Shown: positions 8,015-23,128 of the stretch, one piece after another
Numbering within the stretch: the first letter of the stretch is position 1
Layout: each line of letters starts with the position of its first letter
Assembly: GCF_000373905.1 (NCBI RefSeq)
Contig: NZ_KB892705.1
Coordinates: 4,352,478-4,416,477 of the forward strand
Reading direction: 5' to 3'
Length of the DNA stretch: 64,000 nucleotides
From: Mycobacterium sp. 155
GTDB lineage: Bacteria; Actinomycetota; Actinomycetes; Mycobacteriales; Mycobacteriaceae
The notes under the pieces: generated by a model
Told to the model about the DNA's origin: nothing
Database searches by the model: none
Seen by the model: only the letters and a program-made list of their open reading frames with translations
Made by a program: the position numbers and the translations under genes

Positions 8015-8995
8015 GTGGCGTATCCAAGGCACCGGCCTCGCCGGCTGAGAAGTACCCCGGCCATGCGCCGACTGGTTGCGCAAACCTCGCTGGAGCCAAG
8101 GCATCTGGTGCTGCCGATGTTCGTCGTCGAAGGCATCTCCGAACCGCGGCCGATCTCCTCGATGCCGGGCGTGGTGCAGCACACCCGGGATTCGCTGCGC
8201 CGCGCCGCCGCTGACGCGGTCACCGCAGGCGTGGGCGGACTGATGTTGTTCGGGGTGCCGCGCGACGAATCCAAGGATGCGGCCGGCTCGGCCGGCACGG
8301 ATCCGGACGGCATCCTCAACGTGGCATTGCGTGATCTCGCCAAGGATCTCGGTGATGCCACGGTGCTGATGGCCGACACCTGCCTTGATGAGTTCACCGA
8401 TCACGGCCACTGTGGCGTTTTGGACGGCTCGGGCAGAGTCGACAATGACGCCACCAACGCTCGGTACGTAGAACTCGCTGTGGCACAGGCGAATTCGGGT
8501 GCCCACGTGGTGGGTCCGAGCGGCATGATGGACGGTCAGGTGGCCGCCATCCGGGACGGACTCGACGAGGCCGGGCATACCGGCGTCGCGATCCTGGCCT
8601 ACGCCGCGAAGTTCGCCTCGGCGTTCTACGGTCCGTTCCGGGAAGCGGTGTCGTCCAGCCTGGACGGCGATCGGCGTACCTACCAACAGGATTCGGGAAA
8701 CATCCGCGAAGCCGTCCACGAGATCGAGCTGGATATCGACGAGGGCGCCGACATGGTGATGGTCAAGCCCGCGATGAGCTACCTCGACGTGGTACGCGCG
8801 GCCGCCGACATCTCACCGGTACCGGTTGCGGCTTACCAGATCTCCGGTGAGTACGCGATGATCAGCGCCGCTGCGGCCAACGGCTGGATCGATCTGCAGG
8901 CTGCCGCGCTGGAGTCGTTGATCGGGATCCGGCGGGCCGGGGCCGACATCGTGCTGACCTATTGGGCGGCCGATGTGGCCGGATGGCTGGCCTGA
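8015..8995 (+). CDS. hemB: Delta-aminolevulinic acid dehydratase (porphobilinogen synthase)
   Basis: HemB condenses two 5-aminolevulinates into porphobilinogen. The two active-site lysines are visible in AYAAKFASAFYGPF and MVMVKPAMSYLD. The metal-binding loop reads TCLDEFTDHGHCG: the first and last cysteines of the zinc triad are present and the middle position is Asp, the actinobacterial mixed form. The length of 326 residues is normal. GTG start with CGGAGG upstream, 14 bp after hemD. Its last ~20 bp overlap the longest frame of the next membrane protein. Confidence 0.98.
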   Translation: MAYPRHRPRRLRSTPAMRRLVAQTSLEPRHLVLPMFVVEGISEPRPISSMPGVVQHTRDSLRRAAADAVTAGVGGLMLFGVPRDESKDAAGSAGTDPDGILNVALRDLAKDLGDATVLMADTCLDEFTDHGHCGVLDGSGRVDNDATNARYVELAVAQANSGAHVVGPSGMMDGQVAAIRDGLDEAGHTGVAILAYAAKFASAFYGPFREAVSSSLDGDRRTYQQDSGNIREAVHEIELDIDEGADMVMVKPAMSYLDVVRAAADISPVPVAAYQISGEYAMISAAAANGWIDLQAAALESLIGIRRAGADIVLTYWAADVAGWLA

Positions 8996-9011
8996 ACGGG
9001 CCGTCCCGGTA

Positions 9012-9422
9012 ATGCCTTCACCGCCATCGCCATCGCCATCCCGACCGCAGCCGTCGCCGCGGCCGCTGCGCGCCACCATCGCGTTCAGTTGCTGGCTTGC
9101 CGCGTCGGTGTTGTTGATCGTCGGTGGTCTGATCGCCGCGACCGTGTCCTGGCCGGGCACCGTGAACACGCTCTATCGCGGGTCGGGCGTACTCACCGTG
9201 ATCATCGGGGCCGCGATGGCGCTCCTGGCCGGCCGCAGCCGAGGCGGTGATCCGCGGTTTCGCCGGGCCGCGATGGCGCTGGCGCTGACAGCCGCCGCGC
9301 TGATCGCGATCGCGGCGGCGTTCAGCCTTGTTCCTGTGCACCTGCTGACCCTGGCCGGGGTGATTCTGTTGATCGTCGGTACCGCGCTGAATGTCCAGAC
9401 CTCCAGGGGTGCCGGTGGCTGA
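9012..9422 (+). CDS. Small four-helix membrane protein of unknown function
   Basis: This protein has four hydrophobic segments: SCWLAASVLLIVGGLIAATV, GVLTVIIGAAMALLAG, MALALTAAALIAIAAAFSLV and LLTLAGVILLIVGTALNV. The N-terminus is proline- and serine-rich. The start is uncertain: ATG at 9012 lies just after hemB, while ATG at 8973 inside hemB gives 149 residues. It is the first of three coupled small membrane proteins following hemB, in the place of the Rv0513/Rv0514 pair of M. tuberculosis. I recognise no catalytic motif; a link to haem handling is only positional. Confidence 0.75.
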   Translation: MPSPPSPSPSRPQPSPRPLRATIAFSCWLAASVLLIVGGLIAATVSWPGTVNTLYRGSGVLTVIIGAAMALLAGRSRGGDPRFRRAAMALALTAAALIAIAAAFSLVPVHLLTLAGVILLIVGTALNVQTSRGAGG

Positions 9423-9888
9423 CGAATCCACACCGCATCGGCTGTTCTACGAACCGGGCGGCAGCTGGCTGTGGTTGCTGCTCGGACCGTTCGCGGCGAT
9501 CGGCATCGGGCTGCTGCAGATGACCGGCGGCTACGGGCGTGACCCGTGGATTCCGCTGTTGTTCCTGGTCCTGGTGTCCGGATTCGTCGCCATCCAGATC
9601 AAGGCGGCCCGGATTCACACCTCGGTGGAGCTGACCAGGGACACCCTGCGGCAGGGAACCGAGAAGCTCGACCTGGGCGATGTCGTCAAGATCTATCCCG
9701 AGGCCACCGGCGCCGAGGCGCCGAGGTGGCAGTCCGCCCGGGCGCTCGGCGAGCTGACGGGCGTGCCCAGGGGCCGGCGGGGCATCGGGCTCAAACTGGC
9801 CGGAGACCGGACCGTGCAGGCGTGGGCACGCAGGCATCGACAGCTGCGCGGACAATTGGCCCTGCTGATCGAGGAGCACACGCCATGA
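9415..9888 (+). CDS. Membrane protein, two N-terminal helices plus cytosolic domain (Rv0513-like)
   Basis: Two adjacent hydrophobic helices (WLWLLLGPFAAIGIGLLQM and PLLFLVLVSGFVAI) are followed by a soluble ~100-residue domain with alternating strands (IHTSVELTRDTLRQGTEKL, GIGLKLAGDRTVQAW), which resembles a bacterial PH-like (DUF3093) domain. GTG at 9415 overlaps the stop of the preceding gene; ATG at 9391 gives 165 residues. The stop overlaps the next start (ATGA), so all three genes are coupled. Function is unknown; DUF3093-like identity is a pattern-based guess. Confidence 0.75.
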   Translation: MADESTPHRLFYEPGGSWLWLLLGPFAAIGIGLLQMTGGYGRDPWIPLLFLVLVSGFVAIQIKAARIHTSVELTRDTLRQGTEKLDLGDVVKIYPEATGAEAPRWQSARALGELTGVPRGRRGIGLKLAGDRTVQAWARRHRQLRGQLALLIEEHTP

Positions 9889-10115
9889 AGATCCGAGCCG
9901 TGGTCGAATTGCTGGTGGCGGTCGCTGCCGCCGCAGGATGCGTGGTGAGCTGGCTGGCGGCCGGCACCACCGTGGACGTCGCCCCGATTCTGCCCGACGA
10001 ACCGTCGACCACCTCGGTCGTCTATTCCGCCCCGCTGCTGGTGCTGGCGTTGCTGTTGGCGATCGTCGCCGGTGTGCTCGCTGTCCTCGGCATCGCGCGG
10101 CTGCGCCGCGGCTAG
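9885..10115 (+). CDS. Two-helix small membrane protein (76 aa, Rv0514-like)
   Basis: This protein is 76 residues long with two hydrophobic helices, VVELLVAVAAAAGCVVSWLA and PLLVLALLLAIVAGVLAVLG, joined by a short periplasmic loop containing the acidic/threonine segment PILPDEPSTTSVV, and ends in RLRRG. Its ATG overlaps the stop of the preceding gene (ATGA). The stop codon overlaps the stop of the convergent FAD oxidoreductase gene, so the haem operon ends abutting the accessory cluster with no intergenic space. Function unknown. Confidence 0.75.
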   Translation: MKIRAVVELLVAVAAAAGCVVSWLAAGTTVDVAPILPDEPSTTSVVYSAPLLVLALLLAIVAGVLAVLGIARLRRG

Positions 10116-12943
10116 CGATCCGGGTCCAGCCACCCGGGTTCGGTGATCCCCGGGTACGACGACTGCGGTGTGTTTGCCTCGGATGCGCTGGAGTAGAGCG
10201 ACCGGGGTGCGGGCTGGGCGGGCGAGTTCTCGGCGTCGGCGAACCGGCGATATGCCGACCCGACGGGGTGTTGCGGCGGTGGTGCCAGTGGTGTCTGCGG
10301 TGCGGGGTCTTGGCGGGGCTGTGCCGGTTGGGGTGTGCGCCGTGGCCGACCTGTCGCAGTCGTCTGGATTCCGTAGTCGTCGGCGGGTGCGACAACCTCC
10401 TCACCGGGATATGACAATGGGCCAGCGGGCGGGCCGTCGCCCTCGGTCGGTCGTCCTGCGGCTTCGCCCACCGTCTGTTCCAGATAGTGCCGCCAAGCCT
10501 GTAGATAAGTCAGCAGCTGCTGGGTGTAGTCGGTCGGCGAGGCCGGAAGGGGCAGGCCGGCAGGGGAAAGCAGCGAACCACCCGGCCCCCCGAGCCCAGT
10601 TTGCTGCAGGTACTGCCGCCAGGACTGCAGATAGCTGAGCAACTGTAGGCCGGGATCTGGCGGCATCGTCGGCTGAGTCATCGGTTGGCCTCCCGGAATC
10701 GGCGGGACGGGGGTGAGCAGCGGCGGTGTGACGGTGTCCAGCGGATGCGGCAGCGACTCCTGGCAGTACTGCCCGTCGAGGGTGCGCAGCGGGCGAGCAT
10801 CTGCGGGCTCGCGGTTCTCGATGTCGAACACATAGCAGTAGTCGCCGGCCGGGGACGGCATCCGGACCGGGCTCGAGTAGCCCTGATCGAGGAAGTCGTA
10901 GGGAAACCGCCAGTCGAGCGTGGTGTTCTCCCGGTGATCGGCGCCGCCGGATGCGGCCCAGATGTAGTGGTCGAGGATGGCATTGACGGCGTGGCGCCCC
11001 GATTCGCATGCCGCCTCCATCGACGTCATCCGCGTGAAGGTCTTGGTCCAGGTGCCCGCGAACACGACCGAGTTGTGATGTACCTGGTAGCCACCGTGGC
11101 GGGCCTGCCAGACGTTGCGCTCCCGCAGATCCGCCAGCCAGCGCTCCTCGGTCGGCCGGGAACCCCACGACCCGCCGTGCGGGTTCCACGGATCCGCGCC
11201 GGGCCGGTTCTCCCAGTCCCCGACGATCGGGACGAGGTACGGCGTCTCGTTGCGCACCGCCTTGCCGTGCCCCTGGCCGGGGCCGTTGCCCATGACCAGG
11301 CCCCGGTCGAGCGCATACCACGTGGGCCACGGCATCAGCGCCTCGGCGACATTGTCGACGTCGCTGGTCAGCGCGTACACGATCTGCCGCCACACCTCGG
11401 TGGCGATCTCGTCGGCCGTGCAGTCGCGGGCCGCCTTGCCGCGCCCGGACTCGTCGAGGAGGTGCCGCGACGGGGTGTTGAAATCGCCGATGTCGACCGA
11501 GAGCACCGAGACGTGGCCGTCGCGCGCCAGGGTCGGCCGGCGTTCCCACAGGCCGTGCTGGTTGATCGACGACAGCGCCCACTCGGTGCCCGAGTAGTAC
11601 ATGTGCCCGCGCAGCAGCTGGAATTCGGTGTCGAAGTAGTACTGGATGCCGCCGAGCGTCTGGAACCGGTCCCACGGCACCCGGCCCATCTCGTCCATGG
11701 CGTACGGGTCGCGCCGGGTCTGCGGGCGAGTCTCCCCGGGCTCCAGGGGGCCGCCGCTCGGCGGGGCCGATGTGGTGAACCCGTCGAGCCCGGCCACGGT
11801 GCCGCCTGTGCCGGCCGCGCGCAACGCCGCGGTGATCTGTTCGGCGGCGGGGGCGTCCACCGCTACGACGGTGTAGTCCGGCGCCAACCGGGTGCTGTCG
11901 GACAGCGTCACCTGTACGCGCGGGCGCCGGTGCGGTGGCTGGGCCGGGTCGGATGCGGGTGGTTCCAGCCGGTCGACGCCGGCCCGGACGAAGCGGACAC
12001 CGAGCTCGACGAGGTGGCGGTGCCAATGGTCGAACCACGCCTCGGTGGTGGGGCCGTTGAGCACCCCGTCGGCCTTGTTGTCGCGGCGGTCCATTTGCAG
12101 CTGGAGCTGCAGATACGTGGTCAGGTTGGTGCGGGCGTCGCCCCAACGGGTGTCGAATGCCGCCAGCACGCGCGGCATCTCCAGCAGCAGGGAGTCGAAG
12201 CGCGGCGAGTAGGAGAATCGGGGCTGCTCTGCCGTGTCGTCACGGCCGACGAAGAAGTCGTATGCCGACAGGTTCTGCAGTTCGGCGGCCCGGCGCAGCG
12301 GACTTGTGACGAGGTAGCGCACGAGCCTGGTGATGAACCGGTCGATGTCCGACGCGGTGAAGCCCAATTCGGTGAGTTGTCCGATGATCGTGAGGAACTC
12401 GGCCGGGGTGCGCGGCGCCTCGCGCGGGAACACCAGCGACGGCTTGCCGTCCACGGTGGTGCCCTGGGTGACGACGCGCCGGACGTTGTCCATGATGGTT
12501 CGCGACGTGGGGACCCAGTCGACCGTGCCGCCGGGCGCGTCGATGCGCTGGTACACCGGGATGCGTTGGAAAAGATCCCACGTGTGCAGGTAGTAGGCCG
12601 GGAAGAAGCGGAAGCCGTGTTCACCGGCGACGGCCCGCGCGGGTGGGCGAGGTTCGCCCCGGCGGCCCGGGAAGGGCCGTAGTTCGGCGGCGCTGCCGTC
12701 GTGCGTGCCCACTGTCGAGTATTGCGACGCGGCCAAACCACCTAGCTTGACGGGTGGATACGTGTCGGCCGGCGCGGTGCCGAGCCCCGTGCGTTCGTCG
12801 ACACGCGGCTCGTACACCGTGACGTCGAAACCGCGCTGCGCCAACTCGTGCGCGGCGGTAAGCCCCGCGATGCCGGCGCCAAGGACCGCGACGGTCGGGC
12901 GCTGAGGGCACGACGCGGGTGTGGTGATGACCTCGCTCGTCAC
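10112..12943 (-). CDS. FAD-dependent amine-oxidase/phytoene-desaturase-type oxidoreductase with long Pro-rich tail
   Basis: This is a 943-residue protein. Near the N-terminus VAVLGAGIAGLTAAHELAQRG and a downstream acidic strand end form the FAD-binding Rossmann motif of the carotenoid/squalene oxidoreductase (hydroxysqualene dehydroxylase-like) family. The flavoprotein body runs to about residue 720. The remainder is a Pro/Gln/Thr-rich, probably disordered tail that holds two copies of an amphipathic motif, LLSYLQSWRQYLQQT (about 766-780) and LLTYLQAWRHYLEQT (about 808-823). It is the last gene of the accessory operon; GTG start overlaps the SCP2-like stop (GTGA). Oxidation of an isoprenoid product is inferred from the polyprenyl synthase in the same operon. 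Confidence 0.85.
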   Translation of the reverse strand: MTSEVITTPASCPQRPTVAVLGAGIAGLTAAHELAQRGFDVTVYEPRVDERTGLGTAPADTYPPVKLGGLAASQYSTVGTHDGSAAELRPFPGRRGEPRPPARAVAGEHGFRFFPAYYLHTWDLFQRIPVYQRIDAPGGTVDWVPTSRTIMDNVRRVVTQGTTVDGKPSLVFPREAPRTPAEFLTIIGQLTELGFTASDIDRFITRLVRYLVTSPLRRAAELQNLSAYDFFVGRDDTAEQPRFSYSPRFDSLLLEMPRVLAAFDTRWGDARTNLTTYLQLQLQMDRRDNKADGVLNGPTTEAWFDHWHRHLVELGVRFVRAGVDRLEPPASDPAQPPHRRPRVQVTLSDSTRLAPDYTVVAVDAPAAEQITAALRAAGTGGTVAGLDGFTTSAPPSGGPLEPGETRPQTRRDPYAMDEMGRVPWDRFQTLGGIQYYFDTEFQLLRGHMYYSGTEWALSSINQHGLWERRPTLARDGHVSVLSVDIGDFNTPSRHLLDESGRGKAARDCTADEIATEVWRQIVYALTSDVDNVAEALMPWPTWYALDRGLVMGNGPGQGHGKAVRNETPYLVPIVGDWENRPGADPWNPHGGSWGSRPTEERWLADLRERNVWQARHGGYQVHHNSVVFAGTWTKTFTRMTSMEAACESGRHAVNAILDHYIWAASGGADHRENTTLDWRFPYDFLDQGYSSPVRMPSPAGDYCYVFDIENREPADARPLRTLDGQYCQESLPHPLDTVTPPLLTPVPPIPGGQPMTQPTMPPDPGLQLLSYLQSWRQYLQQTGLGGPGGSLLSPAGLPLPASPTDYTQQLLTYLQAWRHYLEQTVGEAAGRPTEGDGPPAGPLSYPGEEVVAPADDYGIQTTATGRPRRTPQPAQPRQDPAPQTPLAPPPQHPVGSAYRRFADAENSPAQPAPRSLYSSASEANTPQSSYPGITEPGWLDPDR

Positions 12944-13344
12944 GACACTCCCTCCCGCAGCGCGGACAGCAGTCCGGGCACCGACGGGGCCCGGACCGCG
13001 GCGTGCACATAGGCCAGCAGGGTGTCGTGCACCCGCAGGATGTCATCGAGCGAGCCTGCGACGGTCACCGCGCCCGTCTGCACGGCGTCGTGCAGCCCCA
13101 TCCTGGCGTCGAGCACATCGAGGATCGCGGCGCGCGACGTGGTGATGCGCGGCCCGTCGAAACCCTCGGATTCGTCGCGCACTTCGAGGCGGTGCCCGCC
13201 GCGCAGCGCGAAGCGTTCGCCGTCGACGTCGAGGGCGACGACCAGCGGCCCGAGCCGGTCGAGCACCAGTCGGTAGCTCGCGGGCACCTCGTCCGCGAGA
13301 TGACCGACCGACCGGCGCAGCAGCGCCGCCACCGGCTCACCCAT
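12940..13344 (-). CDS. Small SCP2/sterol-carrier-like protein
   Basis: This protein is 134 residues long. The pattern is SCP2-like: an N-terminal helix, strands VVALDVDGERFALRGG and RLEVRDESEGFDGPRITTSRAAILDVLDARMGLHDAVQTGAVTVAGSLDDILRVHDTL, in which a ligand-binding sheet is followed by the conserved small-molecule-carrier segment. SCP2-type domains bind hydrophobic ligands, which fits an isoprenoid pathway. I place the start at ATG 13344, overlapping the end of the CrtC-like gene; the longer upstream frame reads through that gene and is not credible. The stop overlaps the FAD oxidoreductase start. Confidence 0.7.
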   Translation of the reverse strand: MGEPVAALLRRSVGHLADEVPASYRLVLDRLGPLVVALDVDGERFALRGGHRLEVRDESEGFDGPRITTSRAAILDVLDARMGLHDAVQTGAVTVAGSLDDILRVHDTLLAYVHAAVRAPSVPGLLSALREGVS

Positions 13345-14347
13345 GGAGAAACTCGAACACACCGGTGCCGGTGAAGTCGACCGATTCGCCGTTGATTGTT
13401 CCGCGTATCCGGGCCGTGCCGTCCGCCTCGCACAACACGGTCGAGCGCTGGAGGTCGACCTCGCTGGGCTGCGCCAGCCGCGCGTACGACCGTGGCCGGA
13501 ACTCGGCATGCACCGCGTCGCCCGCCCGGGTCGCGCTGATCTCCACCCGGTCCGGGACGCCCGGCACGTCACCGTCGACCAGCAGCCGCATGGGCGGCGG
13601 CAGGGTGCAGTCGGGCGCCCGGCTGAGCCGGCCTGATGCGCGCATCCGCAGCTGCGCGTGCCGGAAGATCACGGCGGGCTCGTCGTGGTGCCACACGTAC
13701 AGCGCCTGCGACTGGAAATGCAGCCGGTGCCGGTCGGTCATCTGCAGGAACACCAGCGACCACGGATCGCTGGGCTCGGCAGGCAGGATCGTGCCCCACA
13801 TCCAGCCGAAGTCGTCGCCCCACCGGAACCGGCCCCAGTTGTGGTCGTGGTAGGCCAGATCGGACTCCATCCGGTGCTCGCGGTCCGCTATGCGCAGCCA
13901 CCCGTCGGCCCGCAGCCGCGGCACGAACAGCCACGACATCCGGCCTTGTCCCACCGGCTGGTTGTTGACGGCGAACGGTCGGCTGACCGGGGTGAGCCGC
14001 AGTTCCCCCCGGATACCGGGCAGGTCGATGAGCAACTCGTATCCGTCGGGCCCCACGGTCATCCGGTTGCTGCCTATGGTCAGCACACCCAGATCGGCCG
14101 AGACGTCCATGGCGTTCTCGCCGAAGCGCTCGATGGCGCCGGTCCACTGCTGGTCGTGGGCGATGACGATGACGCGGGGTGCCATGCGGGACCGGGTGCC
14201 CGGGGTGTCCTCGCACGTCAGACTGAAGTTGATGAGGAACCGCTTGGCGCGGCCGTGGACCACGAAATGGTGCCATTCCTTGAACCCTTCGGGCTGCGCG
14301 GCGGCCAGCACCGGCGCACGCAGGAAATCGCTGCCCGCCAGGGTCAT
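13337..14347 (-). CDS. CrtC/AttH-like hydratase-fold protein
   Basis: This protein is 336 residues long. The C-terminal half holds the signature of the CrtC (hydroxyneurosporene synthase)/AttH lipocalin-like family: AYHDHNWGRFRWGDDFGWMWGTIL near residues 165-190, preceded by LRIADREHRMESDL. CrtC adds water across a terminal isoprenoid double bond. Residues 1-60 contain a substrate-type segment EWHHFVVHGRAKRFLINF. Gene context (polyprenyl synthase upstream, FAD desaturase-like gene downstream) supports an isoprenoid substrate, but that is inference. Both ends overlap neighbours by a few bases, implying coupled translation. Confidence 0.75.
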   Translation of the reverse strand: MTLAGSDFLRAPVLAAAQPEGFKEWHHFVVHGRAKRFLINFSLTCEDTPGTRSRMAPRVIVIAHDQQWTGAIERFGENAMDVSADLGVLTIGSNRMTVGPDGYELLIDLPGIRGELRLTPVSRPFAVNNQPVGQGRMSWLFVPRLRADGWLRIADREHRMESDLAYHDHNWGRFRWGDDFGWMWGTILPAEPSDPWSLVFLQMTDRHRLHFQSQALYVWHHDEPAVIFRHAQLRMRASGRLSRAPDCTLPPPMRLLVDGDVPGVPDRVEISATRAGDAVHAEFRPRSYARLAQPSEVDLQRSTVLCEADGTARIRGTINGESVDFTGTGVFEFLHG

Positions 14348-14628
14348 CGCAGCCAGCTCGCAGACGAGTCGGGTGCCGCACCAGGAGGCCCCACCGGGAC
14401 CGGCGGGGCCAGATGTTCCACGCGGGCGCCGAGGGCCGCGAGTCCCAGCAGGACGTGCACGAAGTCGTCGGGCTCGCCCGGTGCGCCGCCGCCGGCCTCA
14501 CCAGCATTACCGGCTCCGCCGGCGGTTAGCGTGCGCACGAGTCGGCCGAGTCCGGCCAGGCCCACCAGGTAGTCGATGAGGCTGGCGTGTTCAGCCAGTG
14601 CGGCCCGCGGATCGGTCAGCTCCGTCAT
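14344..14628 (-). CDS. Small helical protein of unknown function (94 aa)
   Basis: This protein is 94 residues long. It opens with a charged helix (TDPRAALAEHASLIDYLVGL) and has a Gly/Ala/Pro-rich centre, then a second helix DDFVHVLLGLAALGARVEHL and a Pro-rich end. It overlaps the CrtC-like gene (ATGA) and, at the other end, the stop of the 153-residue gene, so it is very likely translated. I recognise no family. It may be an accessory or scaffold subunit of the cluster's enzymes. Confidence 0.6.
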   Translation of the reverse strand: MTELTDPRAALAEHASLIDYLVGLAGLGRLVRTLTAGGAGNAGEAGGGAPGEPDDFVHVLLGLAALGARVEHLAPPVPVGPPGAAPDSSASWLR

Positions 14629-15086
14629 GCGAACCCCTCGGGACGCAACCGGGCAAGCACCGGGTCGTCGGTGCGCGCCGCGCCGATGATCGCGTCGGCC
14701 AGCAGCTCCGCCCACGCGGTCGGGGCGGCGGCCGGCGGGGCGGGGCCGTCGAGCACGTTGAGGCTCACGGTCTCCCACACCCGGCGGAGGTTCTCGACCG
14801 TCTCGGAGGCCGTCAGTGCGTCCCGCAGCCGCGCCCCTCCAGGGGTCTGGGCGTAGCGGCGGCCCTCGGCCACCAGCATGTCGTGTACGCCGCGCGCGGC
14901 GGCGGGGTTGCCGAGCACCGCACGCCGTGCTCCGAGTAGCAGCTCGAACACCGCGCGCTCAGTTCCGGCGGCATCCTCCGGGGGTTCGGGCAGCAGCTGG
15001 GGTGCGCTGCGCTCGATGAGATCGAGCGTCAGCGCCCGGATCCGCTCCAACTCGGCCAGCATGCCGACCAGGGTTTCGGGCGTCAT
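14625..15086 (-). CDS. Helical protein of unknown function (153 aa)
   Basis: This 153-residue, predominantly helical protein has an N-terminal helix MTPETLVGMLAELERIRAL, a Pro-rich turn QLLPEPPED and further helices (GTERAVFELLLGARRAVLG, LRDALTASETVENLRRVWETVS). No known motif. Both ends overlap adjacent genes by four bases, which argues it is a real member of the operon between the polyprenyl synthase and the 94-residue protein. Function unknown. Confidence 0.6.
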   Translation of the reverse strand: MTPETLVGMLAELERIRALTLDLIERSAPQLLPEPPEDAAGTERAVFELLLGARRAVLGNPAAARGVHDMLVAEGRRYAQTPGGARLRDALTASETVENLRRVWETVSLNVLDGPAPPAAAPTAWAELLADAIIGAARTDDPVLARLRPEGFA

Positions 15087-16285
15087 CGCGTGCGTCCGTG
15101 CACATAGTCGACCAGGCCGGTGAGCATGTCCCGGTGCTGGCTCGGCGGCAACCAGTCGAGGCCGCTCAGCGCATTCGCTGCGGCCTGCGCGTGGCGGGCT
15201 GCGACCGCGCGGGCGTAGTCGAGTGATCCGGTCTGGTGGATCAACCGATACAGCCAGCGGATGTCGTCGAGCGTCTTGGATTCCCCTTGATGAGGTCCCA
15301 GCGTCTGCGCTGTGATCGCGTCGCGCCCGACCGGGGAGAGTTCGCCGCGGGCGGTGAGCCGATCCAGCAGGTCGGCGAGCCCCAGTTCACCGGCCGCGCT
15401 CGGGCGTCGTTTGGCCAGGATCCGCACGGCGCGCTCACGGTCGTCGGGGTCGGCGCGGCGTAACGCGTGCATCAGCATCAGCGTCCGCTTGCCCTCCCAC
15501 AGATCGCCACCGATCTCCTTGCCGTAGTCCTGCGGGTCGGCACGCAGGTTCAGCAGATCGTCGGTGATCTGGAAGGCCGCCCCGAGATGTCGGCCGAGGA
15601 TCTCAAGGGGGCCCAGCCGGTCCGGCCCGCCTCCGGCGGCGATCACCCCGGCCTGCAGCGGTGTGATGAACGAGTACCAACTCGTCTTGAGCTCCACCAT
15701 GCGCAGGTAGTCGGTGTCGGCCAGCTGCCAGACGTTGGACCGCACCCACTGCAGCTCGATCGCCTGCCCCTCGACGGTCTGCCGGGTCATGTGCGCGACG
15801 GCCCGCAGGATGCGCAGCGCGGGCCCCAAGCCGATGCGTTCGACGTTGTCGAGCAGCGGCTGCAGCGACAGTGACAGCATGGCGTCGCCGACGTTGACCG
15901 CGATGGGGATGCCGTGGTCGATGTGCAGTGTGGGCCGGCCGCGCCGCTGCCACGAATCGTCCTCGATGTCGTCGTGGATGAGGAACGCGTTGTGGTACAG
16001 CTCCAGCGTCGCGGCGGTCGGCAGGATCGCCTCGAGATGTCCGCCCAACCCCAGGCACGTCGCGATGCTCAAGGCCGGTCGCAGCGCCTTCCCGCCGCGC
16101 AGTGGGTAGTCGAGGATGAGCTCACGCAGTCCGCTGGTGCCGTGTTCACCGCTGCCGTAGAGACGTTCGATCTCACCGTCGCAGGCGTCCTTGCACCGGG
16201 CGAGGTAGTCGTCGAGCCCGGACGTTCGTGGAGGCGGTTCAGCGACGGCCGGCACTGGCGCGTCAGAAAGAGATACCGACGACAC
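15083..16285 (-). CDS. Polyprenyl diphosphate synthase (GGPP synthase-like)
   Basis: This enzyme makes a trans-polyprenyl diphosphate by adding IPP units to an allylic primer. Numbered from GTG 16285 it is 400 residues, with the first aspartate-rich motif DDIED at 105-109 and the second region DDLLN at 242-246 (Asn instead of the final Asp). GGKALRP near residue 64 is the IPP-binding segment. Residues 1-25 form a Pro/Ser-rich, probably disordered leader. The start is uncertain: AAGGA lies 8 bases before GTG 16285; GTG 16255 is an alternative. The N-terminus overlaps the shell-like gene's 3' end. Product chain length is not predictable from sequence alone. Confidence 0.85.
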   Translation of the reverse strand: MSSVSLSDAPVPAVAEPPPRTSGLDDYLARCKDACDGEIERLYGSGEHGTSGLRELILDYPLRGGKALRPALSIATCLGLGGHLEAILPTAATLELYHNAFLIHDDIEDDSWQRRGRPTLHIDHGIPIAVNVGDAMLSLSLQPLLDNVERIGLGPALRILRAVAHMTRQTVEGQAIELQWVRSNVWQLADTDYLRMVELKTSWYSFITPLQAGVIAAGGGPDRLGPLEILGRHLGAAFQITDDLLNLRADPQDYGKEIGGDLWEGKRTLMLMHALRRADPDDRERAVRILAKRRPSAAGELGLADLLDRLTARGELSPVGRDAITAQTLGPHQGESKTLDDIRWLYRLIHQTGSLDYARAVAARHAQAAANALSGLDWLPPSQHRDMLTGLVDYVHGRTR

Positions 16286-17006
16286 CGCCCGGGTCCTTGA
16301 TCCGCAGCGCGTACCGGATCCGCACCGCGAGTTCGATGTCGCCGTCCGGGTTTTCACCGATGACCTCAAGGCTGGGCGCCACGGCGACGGCGACGTCCAC
16401 CGGTTCCTCGCCGGGCGACGCCGTCGCGGCGGCGCCCTGCGCAATCCGCTGCCGACGGCCCAGCAGAAGCATGTCGATTCCCTCGACGCGGTACAGAGTG
16501 TTGACACCGGCGGCCTTGAGCACGGCCTCGGCGATGTCTTCTCCGCTCTCCAGGCGATTGAGCTTCTTGAGTCCGTCGGTGTTGGTCAACAGACATGACG
16601 GCGCACGGTAACCGGCGTTCTCCACGCGTGCGCGAGCGTCGATCAGCGTGTCCAGCAGGGCCGCAGTGGTATCGCTCGCCAGGCTCAGGGGATTGGTGTC
16701 CACGACGTTGAGCTTTGCCAGGATTGCGGTGTCGACGTTCGCGGCGAGTTCGACGGTCTTCGCCGTCAGCACGGCCAGCAACGGATCCGGCGTCGGCGCA
16801 CCCGCCTGGGCAAGCGTCACGGCGAATTTCTCGTTGGCGGTGACAAGCTCCAGGAAGTCCGGTGGGACGGTGTCGCTGCGGACCCAGGTCTGGCCGGGAT
16901 CGCCGGTGTCCCAGTGGGGGATTGCCTGCCAGGCCACGCTCGTCTGTTCGAACGTTTCGCGTACGGCCCGGTCGGCCACGGCCAACCGCTCGGCGCTCAG
17001 ATACAT
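16263..17006 (-). CDS. Putative HK97-fold shell protein (encapsulin-like)
   Basis: This protein is 247 residues long with no recognised catalytic motif. Its layout resembles HK97 major capsid/encapsulin proteins: an N-terminal arm, then the long helix region with ELAANVDTAIL (the position of the 'D..L.G' segment of capsids), the A-domain stretch YRAPSCLLTNTDGLKKLNRL, the VNTLYRVEGIDMLLLG segment, and a closing strand IELAVRIRYALRIKDPGGVVGI like the capsid C-terminus. Shorter than family 2 encapsulins and not similar to linocin/Cfp29 by eye. ATG start with GAGGGGG upstream. It is the first gene of a seven-gene overlapping set that continues with a polyprenyl synthase, an arrangement known for family 2 encapsulins. 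The fold call is hypothesis. Confidence 0.5.
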   Translation of the reverse strand: MYLSAERLAVADRAVRETFEQTSVAWQAIPHWDTGDPGQTWVRSDTVPPDFLELVTANEKFAVTLAQAGAPTPDPLLAVLTAKTVELAANVDTAILAKLNVVDTNPLSLASDTTAALLDTLIDARARVENAGYRAPSCLLTNTDGLKKLNRLESGEDIAEAVLKAAGVNTLYRVEGIDMLLLGRRQRIAQGAAATASPGEEPVDVAVAVAPSLEVIGENPDGDIELAVRIRYALRIKDPGGVVGISF

Positions 17007-17081
17007 GGGCTGCGACCCCCTCGACGAATGTGGTCCAAATCATGGCAGAGGAACCGAGCCGTCGAGGTGCGATTGGCGCAG

Positions 17082-20000
17082 CTACTTCTGCGCGAGCTCG
17101 ACCTCCTGACCAGGCGACATGTCGCCGCGGTCCACGGCATCGCAGTGCGCGAGGTGCAGTGTCGCCACAGTGTCGTCGGGCAGCAGCAGGCGGCACTTCT
17201 CGAATACGGCCCGAGCCTGGGCGGCCTCGCCGGCATCGAACAACCCGAACGCGTCGTCGAACATCGGCTGCGCGGTGCGTTTCGCCTCCCGCAGTGGTGA
17301 CGGATCCTCGTCGTACACCTCGTAGATCGTCACGGGCCTGCGCCGGTTGACCACCATCACCCGCTCCATCCGGCGGATGTCGAACTGCTCGCGCGCCGAG
17401 AGCCGGGTGTAGGTCGCATCGGAGATGAGCAGCGCGGTGCCGTAGCGCTTGTTGGTGCTCTCGATGCGCGCAGCGACGTTCACGGCGTCCCCGATGATCG
17501 TCAGGACCATGCGGTTGACCCCGCCGACGAGGCCGACCCCGACCGGGCCGGTGTTGATGCCGATTCCGACCTGCAGTTCTTCCGAACCTTGCGCGAGCCG
17601 GTCGGAGTTGTGCTCGCGCAGCGAGCGCAGCATGGCCAGGCCGCCGCGCACCGCGTCGTCCTCCGACTCGAAGACCGCAACGATCTCGTCCCCGCGGACA
17701 TCCTGGATCATGCCGTTGCAGCTGATGATCGGCAGTTCGACGGCCCGCAGGAAGCCCATCGCCAGGTTGCTGGCGTCGGAGACGTTCATGTCTTCCAAAA
17801 GTGTTGTGTAGCCCCGGATATCGGAGATCAGGACGGTCATCTGGCGCTCGACGCGATGGCCGTTGTGTACGCGGCGCAGATCATCGATGTCGAGGATGCG
17901 CAACAGCTCGTTGGGCACGAACTTCGACTGCGCGTCCATCAGCGAGCGGCGGTACTCGTCGGCCGCCTGCAATTGCGCCTCCAGCTTGAAGTTCCACATG
18001 GGAGCGGCGGCCTGATCGCATACGAAGGACACCGCCTCCTCGTGATGCGCACCGAAATACCGTGCAGGGTCGCCATGTTCGGCGTAGATCATGCCGATGA
18101 TGTTGTCCTGCACCCGGATTGGCGCGACCAGGATCGCCGGCACTGGGCGGCGCTGCCCGTTGGGCCCAGGCCGCCGCGTGGAATCGGCGGCGACGATCAG
18201 CGGAGTGCCGCAGCCGACGACGCGGCGCACCAGGCTGCGGTCGTAGGGCACCTCGGTCCACGGTCCGTCGACGGTTGTGATCCGGCCTTCGTCGAGGACA
18301 GCCCGCACCATGAGATGTTCGGGCTCACCGGTGAGCAGCAGGACCCGGTTGGCGCCCGTGGTGTCGGCAACCGTGCGCAACACGATGTTGGCCAGGCTGT
18401 CGGCGTCGCGAGCCGCGGACAGGGCACGCACCAGATGGTGGGCCCCGGCCGGGTCGATTCCCACCGAGTCCGGTGCGACGAGGTCGCGGCTGAGCAACCA
18501 CGGGTAGGTGCGCGCCAGCCGCTCGGTGCGCAACGTCAGCCCCAGGGTGCAGAAGCGCTGATAGGCCATGCGCAGCATGTGCTCGCTGAGCCGGTTGCGG
18601 CCGGTCTCGGCGTAGAGAGCGGCGGCCTCCTCGTAAGCCGCGGCGGCGATCAAGGGCAGCTGATGCTCGTCGGCCAGTTCCATCGCCCGGTGCAGGGCCA
18701 GCTCGGCGGTGCGGTGCCGGCCACGCGCCCGCGCCCAGGTGCCCTCGATCAGCGCGTAGGGCGCCGCATAGTTGGCGGGGGATTCCGCCGCCCATCTGCG
18801 GTGCAGTGCCAGCGTGCGGTGCGCGCACCGGCGGGTCGAGCGCGCGTCCGGTGCGACGTGGATGCGGCTCAGCGCGTTCACCATGTGGACCAGCTGAACG
18901 ATGGCGGTGCCTTGCATGCCGCCGATGTGCTCGATCGCGGCGTCGGCGACCGCGACCGCCCCGGCGTAGTCACCGGCCCAGAAGTGCAGGCCCAGCCGCA
19001 TGGTCGCGGCCGTGCCGAGGGCAACCTCGTCGCCCTCGCGCCGGGCCGCGGGCAGCGCCACCCGCTCGTCGTAGCCGCTCTCACCGGCCAGTAGGTACGG
19101 ATCCTCGCTGCGCCCCATCAGGTTGAGACAGATCTGCTGGACGGCCTGGCACAGGCGGCGCGGTACCGGCTGCGACCAGATTTCCGGGATCACGGTCTGG
19201 GCCAGTTCGTCGATCTCGGCCAGCGGGCGGCCGATCCAGAAGTACTGCGACAGCAGGACGGCGCCGAGGAATCCGGCGTACTCCTGGTCACCGTGGTCGA
19301 GTGCCTCGGTCACCGCGTCGCGCAGCTGGCCGAAGCCGTCGCGCAGGTGGTGGCGCCAATGCCGGATGAAGTTCAGGTGCATGAACAGCGTTTCCGGCCG
19401 GGCGTCGCGGAACTCGGGCCGATCGGTGAGCAGCAGGGCCGTCTCGCCGAACCGTTGCGCGCCCGCCGGGTCGCCGGTCATCACCAGCAACACGCCGTAG
19501 CTGACCAGCACCAGCGGCAGTGACGGGGTGTGGCCGTGCGCCAGCGTCAGCTCGAGCTGCTTGTGCACGATGAGCGGAAACAGGTTGGGTCGCGCGATGT
19601 AGGACAGGCTGCGCAGTTCGGCGAGGGTGCGTTGGATCTCCACCACACGCCGGTCCTCACAAGGGGACAACTGCAGAAACTGTTCGGTGGACCAGTGCCG
19701 CACCATGAATCGTGTCCGCACCAACGCGTTGGCCATCCGAGGTTTGCCGGCGTCGTGGGGCAGTGACTCGCCGAGCTCGTCGAGAACGCCCAGCCCGACG
19801 TCGAGCGCCTCCTGCAGCCGGTTCTGCGCCATCCGTCCCTTGAGTCGCAGGTAGGCGAGCCGGCTACGGTCGGCCGGTTCGCGCAACGCGGTCTCGGCCT
19901 CGTCGAGCAGCGCGTGCAGCGCCGTCACGTCTCCCACCAGCAGCGCGGCGTCGGCCGCCTCGAGCTGCAGCTCTCGGGTCAGCTCGAAATGCCGGACCCA

Positions 20001-21422
20001 GCGGGTCTCGCCGAGGAGGTCGAGTCCGTTGCGGCAGTACGTCAGCGCCAGCGGGAACGACGCCTGTGCCCTCGCCTTGCGGGCCGCGTGCCGCAGCACG
20101 TCGACGAACCGGATCCGCTCGTCGTCGTCAGCCAGTCCGAGTCCGCCGATGCCGACGTGACGCGCGGCCTCGAACAGTCGCTCGTCGCCTTGTTCGACGA
20201 GACGCCGGCCGATCCGCAGATGCGTCTCCCGCGCTGCGTCGTCGGAGAGATCTTCGCGCGCCGCCTCGGCCACGCGGTCGTGGCTGAACCGGTACCGGGC
20301 ATCGTGACTGATTGTGTTGGCGATCCGCTGGCCGCGGCCGTCGACGGCTTCGAGCAGACGAAGCTCCAGGGCCGACCACAACGCCTGGGCCACGACATCG
20401 GTGGGTTGCGCGGCCGCCGCCGTCGCGTCGGCGAGGTCGAACTCACCGCCGATGCAGGTCAGTGCGCTGAGCACGGCGCGATCCGCCGGGCGCAGCTGGT
20501 CGAGGTAACGGTTGAGGAACTCGGCGGCAGAGTCGGTGACCTCGATCGAGCTCAGCACCCGCAGGTCCCAGCTGGGCCGCCCGCTCATGCCGATCGGGGT
20601 GAGCGCGCCTTCCCGTTGCGCGCGGTACAGCAGCTGGCGGACCTGCAGTGGATTGCCGCCGGTGCGATGGTGGAACTCGGCGGCCACATCGGCGAGTTCG
20701 ACGGCGGGGCCACACACACCTGCCAGCAGTTCTTCGACGGTTTCGCGGGACAGCGGTGCCAGCTGGATGGTGGACAACCCCGCCGGGGGCAGGCCCGCCA
20801 CGTTGGGGTCGAATTCGCCGGCCCGGTGCGCGCCGAGGACCAGCACGTTGCGCACCGATACCGCGAGCAGCTCTGAGAGCATCAGCAGGGAGTCGTGATC
20901 GCCCCACTGCAGATCATCGATCGCCAGCACCACCGGGCGGTACGAGGCGGTTTCGGAGATCAACCGGATGGCTGCGCGGTGCAGCCGGCGGCGGGGATCG
21001 GCAGCCTCGCGGTCGGTGGACGCCGGCGGCTGGCCGAGCACCTGGGTCAGGTCCGGCACGAGTTCGGTCAGCACGCCCGTCAGCGCCGACATCCCGTTGG
21101 CGAGATCGGCACGCCAGCTGTCCCGTTCTGCCGGACCGGTGGCCTCCATGGTGTGGACGATCGCGCTGAACGCTTCGCCCAATGCCGCATACGGTGCCGG
21201 CGCACCGTCACGGCACCGTCCGTAGGCGAAGACGCAGTCGCGTTGGGCGACCTCGGCGCCGAACGCTTGCACGAGGGTCGACTTGCCCACCCCGGAGGCG
21301 CCGCTGACCAGGACGCATCGGCCGCCGTTGCGTTCGGCATCGGCGATGGCCGCGCGGAGTTCAGCCGACTCCGCGGCCCGTCCGACGACGCGGCCGTCGA
21401 GGTCGAGTATCGGAGCGGTCAC
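17082..21422 (-). CDS. Multidomain ATPase-GAF-class III nucleotidyl cyclase regulator
   Basis: This is a protein of about 1446 residues with three visible parts. First, a AAA-type ATPase with Walker A GASGVGKST (about 43-52) and Walker B VVLAIDDLQWGD. Then a ~600-residue helical repeat region and a GAF-like domain near 1010-1170. Then a class III adenylate/guanylate cyclase homology domain starting TVLISDIRGYTTLL (about 1195) with GDEIVAVFES and the GDAVNVAARIES catalytic block. The first metal Asp, second Asp and Asn/Arg are all present, so the cyclase is probably active. I start it at GTG 21422, 9 bases after GGAAGGA, not at ATG 21458. It lies 75 bp before the shell-like gene. Confidence 0.9.
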   Translation of the reverse strand: MTAPILDLDGRVVGRAAESAELRAAIADAERNGGRCVLVSGASGVGKSTLVQAFGAEVAQRDCVFAYGRCRDGAPAPYAALGEAFSAIVHTMEATGPAERDSWRADLANGMSALTGVLTELVPDLTQVLGQPPASTDREAADPRRRLHRAAIRLISETASYRPVVLAIDDLQWGDHDSLLMLSELLAVSVRNVLVLGAHRAGEFDPNVAGLPPAGLSTIQLAPLSRETVEELLAGVCGPAVELADVAAEFHHRTGGNPLQVRQLLYRAQREGALTPIGMSGRPSWDLRVLSSIEVTDSAAEFLNRYLDQLRPADRAVLSALTCIGGEFDLADATAAAAQPTDVVAQALWSALELRLLEAVDGRGQRIANTISHDARYRFSHDRVAEAAREDLSDDAARETHLRIGRRLVEQGDERLFEAARHVGIGGLGLADDDERIRFVDVLRHAARKARAQASFPLALTYCRNGLDLLGETRWVRHFELTRELQLEAADAALLVGDVTALHALLDEAETALREPADRSRLAYLRLKGRMAQNRLQEALDVGLGVLDELGESLPHDAGKPRMANALVRTRFMVRHWSTEQFLQLSPCEDRRVVEIQRTLAELRSLSYIARPNLFPLIVHKQLELTLAHGHTPSLPLVLVSYGVLLVMTGDPAGAQRFGETALLLTDRPEFRDARPETLFMHLNFIRHWRHHLRDGFGQLRDAVTEALDHGDQEYAGFLGAVLLSQYFWIGRPLAEIDELAQTVIPEIWSQPVPRRLCQAVQQICLNLMGRSEDPYLLAGESGYDERVALPAARREGDEVALGTAATMRLGLHFWAGDYAGAVAVADAAIEHIGGMQGTAIVQLVHMVNALSRIHVAPDARSTRRCAHRTLALHRRWAAESPANYAAPYALIEGTWARARGRHRTAELALHRAMELADEHQLPLIAAAAYEEAAALYAETGRNRLSEHMLRMAYQRFCTLGLTLRTERLARTYPWLLSRDLVAPDSVGIDPAGAHHLVRALSAARDADSLANIVLRTVADTTGANRVLLLTGEPEHLMVRAVLDEGRITTVDGPWTEVPYDRSLVRRVVGCGTPLIVAADSTRRPGPNGQRRPVPAILVAPIRVQDNIIGMIYAEHGDPARYFGAHHEEAVSFVCDQAAAPMWNFKLEAQLQAADEYRRSLMDAQSKFVPNELLRILDIDDLRRVHNGHRVERQMTVLISDIRGYTTLLEDMNVSDASNLAMGFLRAVELPIISCNGMIQDVRGDEIVAVFESEDDAVRGGLAMLRSLREHNSDRLAQGSEELQVGIGINTGPVGVGLVGGVNRMVLTIIGDAVNVAARIESTNKRYGTALLISDATYTRLSAREQFDIRRMERVMVVNRRRPVTIYEVYDEDPSPLREAKRTAQPMFDDAFGLFDAGEAAQARAVFEKCRLLLPDDTVATLHLAHCDAVDRGDMSPGQEVELAQK

Positions 21423-21460
21423 GGCCACCGTTCCTTCCGCCCCACCCAGAATGTGCATTC

Positions 21461-21466: not shown

Positions 21467-21609
21467 GTAAGCCGTGCCCGGCGGAGTGCGGCGATGGGAA
21501 ACTCCGTCGCTTCGTACGGTCTCGGGTACGGCTGTCAACGACTGGACCGGCGACGAGGGCAATCCCATTTACGGCCGGGCGGATGAGGACGGGTAATAAC
21601 CTCGCTGGT

Positions 21610-22098
21610 GTGACCCCATTGGAGCGGATTGCCCCTGCCTTCGTCGAGATGGCCCATTCGATCGTGTGGGCTTCGGCGGCCACTGTCGACGCCGACGGAC
21701 GTCCACGCAGCCGCATCCTGCACCCCATTTGGGAATGGGATGGCACCGACCTGTTCGGTTGGGTTGCAACTGTTCCCAGCCCGATCAAGCGGGCACACCT
21801 GGCGGTGCACCCGTACCTATCGGTGAACTACTGGACCACGAATCACGACACGTGCTCTGCCGATTGTCTGGTGGAGTGGTACCTCGATGACGAGACCTGC
21901 ACTCAGGTGTGGGATCGCTTCGCCACCGCCCCGGCGCCAGTCGGTTATGACCCGGCGATCATTCCGGGATGGGACGGGCCCACCTCGCCGGGGTTCGCGG
22001 CGCTGCGGCTGACCCCCTACCGGCTGAGGGTCATGCCGGGCACGGTCCTCACAGCGGGTACCGGGGATGTGTTGAACTGGCGGTCGGTGGAGTACTGA
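21610..22098 (+). CDS. Pyridoxamine 5'-phosphate oxidase-family flavin/F420-fold protein
   Basis: This protein is 162 residues in the split-barrel fold: ATVDADGRPRSRILHPIWEW, then the conserved strand LFGWVATVPSPIKRAHLAVHPYLSVNYW, then a pyrimidine-binding-type C-terminus. This matches general-stress/PNPOx-family proteins that bind FMN or F420. GTG 21610 and ATG 21583 are both possible; TAATAA lies 10 bases before 21610 like a -10 for a leaderless message. It is divergent from the large cyclase and convergent with the desaturase. Substrate unknown. Confidence 0.8.
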   Translation: MTPLERIAPAFVEMAHSIVWASAATVDADGRPRSRILHPIWEWDGTDLFGWVATVPSPIKRAHLAVHPYLSVNYWTTNHDTCSADCLVEWYLDDETCTQVWDRFATAPAPVGYDPAIIPGWDGPTSPGFAALRLTPYRLRVMPGTVLTAGTGDVLNWRSVEY

Positions 22099-22162: not shown

Positions 22163-23128
22163 TTACGCCGAGCGTTCGGCTTTGGCGGCCTCGCGTGCGA
22201 GCATGCGGTCGCGTTGCTCCTCGAACCTGAGCACCTGCTTCTGCAGGTCCTCCAGATAGGCAGCCAACTGCTCGCGGCGCTTCTCGCCGACCGCCGTCAC
22301 GTCGTTGCGCTCGAAGATGCGCCACTTCTTGACGTTGGGCATCACGACTTCTTCGAGGTGCTGGCGCAGATCGTAGATGCCGTGCTTGGCCATGACCACG
22401 CTGTTGCGGCGCCAGTTGGGCATCCCTCGGCCAGGCATCCGGAATCCCTCGATGATGGCGCACACCGCTTCCATCGCCTGGTCGGGGGACAGGTCGAAGC
22501 CGGCCGAGAACATGTTGCGGTAGAAGACCATGTGCAGGTTCTCGTCGGTCGCGACGCGTTGCAGCATCGACTCGGCGATCGGGTCGTCGCAGATCTTGCC
22601 GGTGTTGCGGTGGCTGACGCGGGTCGCGAGCTCCTGCAGGGTGGCGTACGCCGAGATCATCAGCGGCCCGGGCTCGTGTATTTCGCGTTCTTCCGCGTCG
22701 GGGTCGTAGCCGTTACGCATGTGCTCCATTCGCATGCGTTCCAGCGCAACGGGATCCACTCCGCGGGTCACGACGAGGTAGTCACGGATGACGATGCCGT
22801 GGCGGTTCTCCTCGGCGGTCCACTGGTTGACCCAGTGGCCCCAGGCGCCTTCGAGTGAGAAGTGATTGGCCGCGCCGCGATGGTACGACGGCAGATTGTC
22901 CTCGGTGAGCAGGTTGGTGACCATGGCAACCTTGGCGACTTCGGACAGACCCGACTGCTCGGGTGCCCAGTCCTCGCCGCCGAGGGCCGCGAAGTTACGG
23001 CCCAGGTCCCACGGAACGTAGTCGTGCGGATGCCACTCCTTGGCGACCCTCAGATGATGGTTCAGGCCCTCTTCGGCGACCGGCTCGAGTTCCTTGAGGA
23101 TCTCGGCGTCGGTCAAATGTCTCTGCAT
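22163..23128 (-). CDS. Acyl-ACP desaturase of the DesA type
   Basis: This protein is 321 residues, colinear with mycobacterial DesA1 but a paralogue rather than DesA1 itself. Its diiron ligand motifs are EDNLPSYH, AEENRHG and DENLH. It should introduce a cis double bond into an acyl-ACP chain with O2 and reduced ferredoxin. The length is normal and the C-terminus is a charged helix. It is convergent with the PNPOx gene and faces cspA's 3' region 246 bp away. Which chain length it uses is unknown. Confidence 0.9.
   Translation of the reverse strand: MQRHLTDAEILKELEPVAEEGLNHHLRVAKEWHPHDYVPWDLGRNFAALGGEDWAPEQSGLSEVAKVAMVTNLLTEDNLPSYHRGAANHFSLEGAWGHWVNQWTAEENRHGIVIRDYLVVTRGVDPVALERMRMEHMRNGYDPDAEEREIHEPGPLMISAYATLQELATRVSHRNTGKICDDPIAESMLQRVATDENLHMVFYRNMFSAGFDLSPDQAMEAVCAIIEGFRMPGRGMPNWRRNSVVMAKHGIYDLRQHLEEVVMPNVKKWRIFERNDVTAVGEKRREQLAAYLEDLQKQVLRFEEQRDRMLAREAAKAERSA

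Follow-up and report, generated by a model that had tools for sequence, protein, structure and literature searches.

Does a run of overlapping genes in some mycobacteria encode a protein compartment, and if so, which chemistry would it house? We addressed this question for a 64,000-nt stretch of Mycobacterium sp. 155 DNA (contig NZ_KB892705.1, positions 4,352,478 to 4,416,477; hereafter, the window), in which a preliminary description made from the sequence had noted seven reverse-strand genes, A to G. The conserved gene block combines a hidden relative of virus shell proteins with enzymes apparently for building and modifying isoprenoids, which suggests an undescribed tiny protein compartment for lipid chemistry. 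The locus probably codes for a nanocompartment of the encapsulin type together with a pathway that modifies isoprenoids; this reading builds on the gene set, its conservation and co-occurrence, and the predicted folds of A and E, and from these we infer assembly, loading, reaction order, product and regulation. In the open-access literature searched, no paper listed describes the locus in its title or in the opening of its abstract, and its undescribed status is provisional. Lists of structure-mined encapsulins may hold the A family: structure-based mining is cited as giving over 1000 putative encapsulins (Kashif-Khan et al., via PMC12136054).

The features of the locus, all on the reverse strand of the window, are as follows.

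16263..17006, reverse strand: A, shell candidate of 247 aa with a predicted HK97 / Family 1 encapsulin-like fold
15083..16285, reverse strand: B, polyprenyl diphosphate synthase, with a GTG start at 16285 or 16255
14625..15086, reverse strand: C, 153-aa protein of unknown fold, conserved across 15 aligned relatives
14344..14628, reverse strand: D, 94-aa protein with a small helix-like region (by eye), a variable linker and a C-terminal SWLR
13337..14347, reverse strand: E, AttH/CrtC-type double-lipocalin protein of 336 aa (predicted fold)
12940..13344, reverse strand: F, SCP2-like protein of 134 aa (weak PF02036 matches among members)
10112..12943, reverse strand: G, amine-oxidase-superfamily protein dependent on flavin adenine dinucleotide (FAD), with a fused C-terminal tail, 943 aa (PF01593)
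10112..10750, reverse strand: tail of G, like the separate protein I of other species, Pro/Ala-rich and presumably disordered
10604..10642, reverse strand: first helix-like repeat of the tail (LLSYLQSWRQYLQ), with the LQxWR pattern
10478..10516, reverse strand: second helix-like repeat of the tail (LLTYLQAWRHYLE)
10190..10204, reverse strand: RSLYS motif, candidate targeting peptide (pattern enriched over shuffles)
17082..21458, reverse strand: H, AAA_16 / GAF / nucleotidyl cyclase protein of 1458 aa (Pfam), 75 nt upstream of A

The eighth gene, H, and the modular tail of G lie outside what the preliminary description covered.

Conservation of the gene block

A scan of genome contigs identified 38 loci, whose titles all name Mycobacterium or Mycolicibacterium save Pseudonocardia eucalypti and one Pseudonocardiales metagenome-assembled genome. 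The polyprenyl synthase gene comes next after the shell gene in 37 of them, that is, in every locus whose contig extends far enough (the contig of L043 ends within the shell gene), and the proposed co-occurrence of the two genes is thus conserved. All eight genes were matched by tblastn in 36 of the 38 loci, presence being scored as the best piece at E ≤ 1e-4, with several pieces partial at contig ends or frame breaks; the other two loci, L029 and L043, are on contigs that end inside the locus. Gene order in the tblastn table is constant except in P. eucalypti (L031), where H is found at the other end of the cluster and on the other strand (about 17068-20745); H therefore belongs to the set even outside one operon. 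In M. lepraemurium (L042), A, E, G and H are each covered only in part by their best piece, which may reflect decay.

The genome searches scored the best few candidates of a first look (8-10 in the genus searches), so that absences are not proof, and on this footing the distribution of A is patchy: it was detected in 46 of 297 genomes of the genus and in 6 of 396 genomes of the phylum, all six from the genus. Protein E was matched in 28 of 203 genus genomes, which to judge from their handles lie within the 297 (non-matching genomes are not all listed). Twenty-six of these matches are strong and fall in the same 26 genomes that carry A up to G225; the two weak ones (G028, G132) fall in genomes with no detected A. 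One shell-positive genome has an E match split in three pieces (G069:C1:3968161-3969182), perhaps a broken copy. Strong matches to C were found in 6 of 394 genomes of the class, all six A-positive, with two marginal matches (E about 1e-4) elsewhere.

The open reading frames (ORFs) of the seven genes are where the preliminary description had placed them, and five of their overlapping junctions are certain (B/C, C/D, D/E and F/G, 4 nt each; E/F, 8 nt). The A/B junction depends on the start of B: it overlaps by 23 nt only with the GTG at 16285, and the next in-frame GTG, at 16255, leaves no overlap. Among the 36 relatives that match all eight genes, with start codons chosen by script, the overlap is kept in 36 at B/C, E/F and F/G, in 35 at C/D, in 30 at D/E and in 26 at A/B.

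The shell candidate

The template-free AlphaFold2 model of A matches Family 1 encapsulins along nearly its whole length, and 222 residues align with a shell-forming encapsulin at a root-mean-square deviation of 2.2. The model has an N-terminal helix (residues 5-22), and neither a long N-arm nor a cyclic-nucleotide (cNMP) domain; alignments with Family 1 chains start, almost throughout the first 36 rows, from residue 1 of the model and residue 9-12 of the chain. A helix in place of an extended N-arm is given as a Family 1 criterion in an excerpt of PMC8346489. This model supports a predicted HK97 fold of A that is nearest to encapsulins, those of Family 1 in particular. The shell candidate of the preliminary description thus stands as a predicted HK97 fold, and no match to an unrelated fold arose. 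We found 645 homologues.

Family 1 encapsulins (PF04454) are the closest known systems, sharing with A the predicted fold, the N-terminal helix without an extended N-arm, a chain of ~250 aa and, on what may be a cargo tail, a conserved short motif. They differ in that A has no significant sequence similarity to them and sits in an eight-gene isoprenoid-type locus with a cyclase, whose seven operon proteins and H have no Pfam match to dye-decolorizing peroxidase (DyP), ferritin-like or other known Family 1 cargo. Family 2B encapsulins with prenyltransferase or terpene-cyclase cargo likewise have linked genes for a shell and a polyprenyl synthase, and a cyclic-nucleotide theme is common to both, as a cyclase gene here and a binding domain there; however, the extended N-arm of Family 2 and the inserted cNMP-binding domain of 2B are missing from the 247-aa A in its model. 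No Family 2 Pfam family matched any of 35 A members, and the window's A had no Pfam match at all and no NCBIfam match at E ≤ 0.1. Family 3 shells, too, lie inside biosynthetic gene clusters; they are described in an excerpt of PMC8346489 as PF05065 proteins in clusters for peptide-based products, whereas PF05065 matched neither the window's A nor any of the 35 members. PF08967 (Family 4) did not match A, whose 247-aa full HK97 fold, in prediction, differs from the A-domain-only form of ~100 aa.

Outside the window, the same genome has genes for an encapsulin of the classical PF04454 type and for a Family 2-like shell (G000:C1:3096837-3097589 and G000:C1:706536-707408), so that it may hold three HK97-type shells.

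The polyprenyl synthase and its partners

The annotation of B as a polyprenyl diphosphate synthase is clear: it matches PF00348 (E 9.6e-58), its profile has geranylgeranyl diphosphate synthetase 1wmw as best PDB match (1.9e-61), and both Asp-rich motifs are present. The link to Family 2 encapsulins drawn in the preliminary description was not borne out, the predicted fold of A being nearest to Family 1 and B scoring 176 bits with the Family 2 prenyltransferase-cargo model f2_encap_cargo4, below its 450-bit cut-off, as with all 17 NCBIfam models listed for B. Nor did the tree support a Family 2 origin of B, which is there separate from the rows over the cut-off; those rows are labelled by score rather than by checked neighbours and do not form one group. 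The tree has long branches and unsettled bootstrap values, one row with a stop (L188) and two of odd composition, and the joining of the B side with the rest is flagged as a possible long-branch effect.

The fold predicted for E is of the AttH/CrtC double-lipocalin type, in agreement with the CrtC/AttH-like assignment made earlier, with 9-12% identity to NE1406, kievitone hydratase, the CghA/Fsa2/Phm7 pericyclases and 25-phosphosteroid lyase. Kievitone hydratase acts on a prenyl group. E shares the two-barrel fold of these enzymes in prediction and differs from them by the low identity and the link to a shell; hydration or cyclization is a candidate reaction for it. Among 16 E members, no Pfam CrtC or lipocalin family scored above the cut-off; DUF2804 appeared in 14 (best E 0.016), tocopherol cyclase in 4 (best 0.028) and two chance-like families in 2 and 1. 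In two genomes from another family of the order, a distant E homologue lies next to a polyprenyl synthase ~46% identical to B (L096:8255-11123 and L097 about 8495-11129), and no shell match was found in the 18 kb fetched.

The SCP2-like label of F remains weakly supported, with PF02036 in 10 of 16 members (best E 0.0032) and the rival alkyl sulfatase C-terminal family in 8 (best 0.0074); the window's own F has no match at E ≤ 1. For G, described earlier as FAD desaturase-like, only the FAD-binding N-terminus was supported (PF01593, 7.9e-9, best stretch 25-47; NAD_binding_8, 3.5e-8); the conserved core of the protein measures about 740 aa. Neither C nor D has a Pfam match. H carries PF13191 (1.1e-28), PF01590 (3.4e-11) and PF00211 (7.6e-11), is matched in all 38 loci (L006-L043), and possesses the motifs ISDIRG, GDE and NVAAR, which we take to fit an active class III cyclase.

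The tail of G and candidate loading tags

The last ~210 residues of G (tail 732-943) are Pro/Ala-rich, being fused to the enzyme in 15 of 35 loci and encoded by a separate ORF at the end of G in the other 20. L029 and L043, whose contigs stop short of G, and L042 are not in these counts; L001-L005 hold no G, and L016 has a run of N in the region. The LQxWR repeat occurs in all 35 tails (shuffle mean 0.02) and [RKPA]SL[FY][SG] in 26, where 500 shuffles gave a mean of 0.15 and never more than 2 of 35; both are also found in P. eucalypti. The patterns were written after the 35 tails had been viewed. The free-form homologues are only a partly independent set, because some come from the same species. 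Among the 120 listed of 126 hits, the loosened repeat pattern occurs in all 120; 69 carry the wider tag pattern in their second half, against 1.3 on average and at most 5 in 200 shuffles, and some of the remaining 51 have near variants (SLFT, SLFN, QTLFK).

An excerpt of PMC7925596 gives the consensus of Family 1 targeting peptides as DGSLGIGSLKG or DGSLGIGSLRG, the GSL core being widely conserved. The likeness of the tail motif to these peptides is short, and the G/I tail is, judged by its sequence, a good candidate for a loading scaffold. Given an encapsulin-type compartment with an isoprenoid pathway, loading through this tail would be the most likely route, at roughly even chances.

By eye, the tails without SL[FY]S in L018, L019, L024 and L034 and in P0209, P0225 and P0231 end in a related pattern, F/Y-x-G-L-x-E/D-R, which may be an alternative form of the tag; in P0225 the two patterns come together as SLFPGLAER. 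A co-variation of tail type with shell clade was considered and dropped: the six loci that lack the wider motif do not group as a single clade (4 changes, a number as low in 19 of 500 shuffles), which gives no clean test.

Proposed mechanism and alternative readings

In the mechanism that we favor, A would assemble into a Family 1-type icosahedral shell. B would produce an all-trans prenyl diphosphate, E would hydrate or cyclize the prenyl product, F could carry the hydrophobic intermediate and G would carry out an FAD-dependent oxidation of this intermediate. The tail of G (or protein I), presumably disordered, would act both as a scaffold and as a loading tag, with the SL[FY]S motif docking in a pocket beside the N-terminal helix of the shell and the two helix-like repeats binding partner enzymes or lipid, while the sensor-cyclase H may regulate the operon or the pathway. 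A tentative and rather uncertain extension is that A represents a fifth encapsulin-type shell family that sequence searches do not reach. A disordered scaffold, bearing two amphipathic helices and an SL[FY]S tag, would there collect a multi-enzyme isoprenoid pathway (synthase, hydratase or cyclase, FAD oxidase and SCP2 carrier) inside a single compartment under a sensor-cyclase, as a mycobacterial protein organelle for lipid or terpenoid tailoring.

Several results weigh against the encapsulin-type compartment. PF04454 matched A in 1 of 35 members (E 0.12, not significant), the A profile had no PDB match at E ≤ 10, and hhalign gave non-significant probabilities for Family 1 (0.8%) and phage capsids (1.6%). 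The predicted local distance difference test (pLDDT) scores of the five AlphaFold2 models run from 81.5 down to 66.0. Foldseek also matches A to predicted phage capsids (E 1.7e-11), near the encapsulin value, and for this reason the preference for encapsulins rests on VIA Z. The tail motif reads [RK]SL[FY]S instead of the canonical GSL, lies 4 to about 130 residues from the C-terminus, and is missing even in its wider form from 6 of 35 loci. Among the operon proteins, the Pfam scan showed neither a terpene cyclase family nor a squalene or phytoene synthase family. Finally, the E-B pair that occurs with no nearby shell implies that the pathway may not need one.

The alternative that survives best, although we consider it somewhat unlikely, is compatible with the encapsulin-type compartment in all but the tag: the SL[FY]S motif of the tail would bind another partner, and the loaded protein would be D, through its C-terminal RWLR, or C. 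Of 36 relatives, 33 end D in R[WF]LR (RWLR in most) after the variable linker, one in SWLR and two otherwise, and the Leu is kept through four codons; however, the last codons of D overlap the start of E, and ribosome-binding and overlap constraints could hold the RW and the last R, so that the conservation of this end may be partly explicable by the overlap. Distinctly less likely is a shell of A that holds a hydrophobic isoprenoid product, as a protein-coated lipid store or carrier rather than an enzyme container, with the SCP2-like protein and the helix-like repeats handing over or coating the lipid. The presence of F, the repeat in 35 of 35 tails, amphipathic by eye, and the lack of a Pfam family in C and D are in line with it, whereas in 15 of 35 loci the FAD enzyme and the tagged tail form one protein, which fits enzyme loading better. 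We regard as improbable a non-assembling, domesticated capsid protein, such as a membrane or enzyme scaffold with no closed compartment: assembly of A is itself conjectural and model confidence is low at residues 37-50 and 186-199, but the retained fold superposes on a shell-forming encapsulin as described above. A prophage or phage-satellite capsid gene that neighbors metabolic genes by chance is very improbable and largely refuted, since against the HK97 fold, the Foldseek capsid match and a PHROG head-protein match (E 0.0051) stand no tblastn match in 50,697 phage records (E ≤ 0.1), confirmation of 0 of 64 candidate stretches on viral contigs, the eight genes matched in 36 of 38 loci, and neighbors with Pfam matches that include haem genes and a desaturase but no phage family (16 window ORFs between 4012 and 23128; the PHROGs scan covered only A, C and D). 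Spread by plasmids was also rejected, with no match in 72,556 plasmid records at E ≤ 0.001.

If the encapsulin-type compartment is right, encapsulins gain at least one more lineage missed by sequence search, tied to a multi-enzyme isoprenoid pathway in mycobacteria, for whose physiology isoprenoids and envelope lipids matter. The locus offers a ready test system, with one short shell gene, a natural enzyme-tag fusion and species with a separate tag protein, and it raises the question of the product that B, E and G would make in the compartment.

Genomic surroundings

A search for tRNA genes in the window found none, and a promoter and terminator scan gave 0 promoters and 2 terminator-like sites, fewer than the shuffle means. 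The flank on the G side holds haem genes (glutamyl-tRNA reductase, porphobilinogen deaminase, HemD and ALAD, by Pfam), which among the loci tested adjoin the cluster only in L006-L009 and L023. Next to H are a 167-aa ORF with no Pfam match (21595-22098) and a fatty-acid desaturase of the PF03405 family (22163-23128). The 167-aa ORF is found near the cluster in L006-L009 and L023, and the desaturase only in L006.

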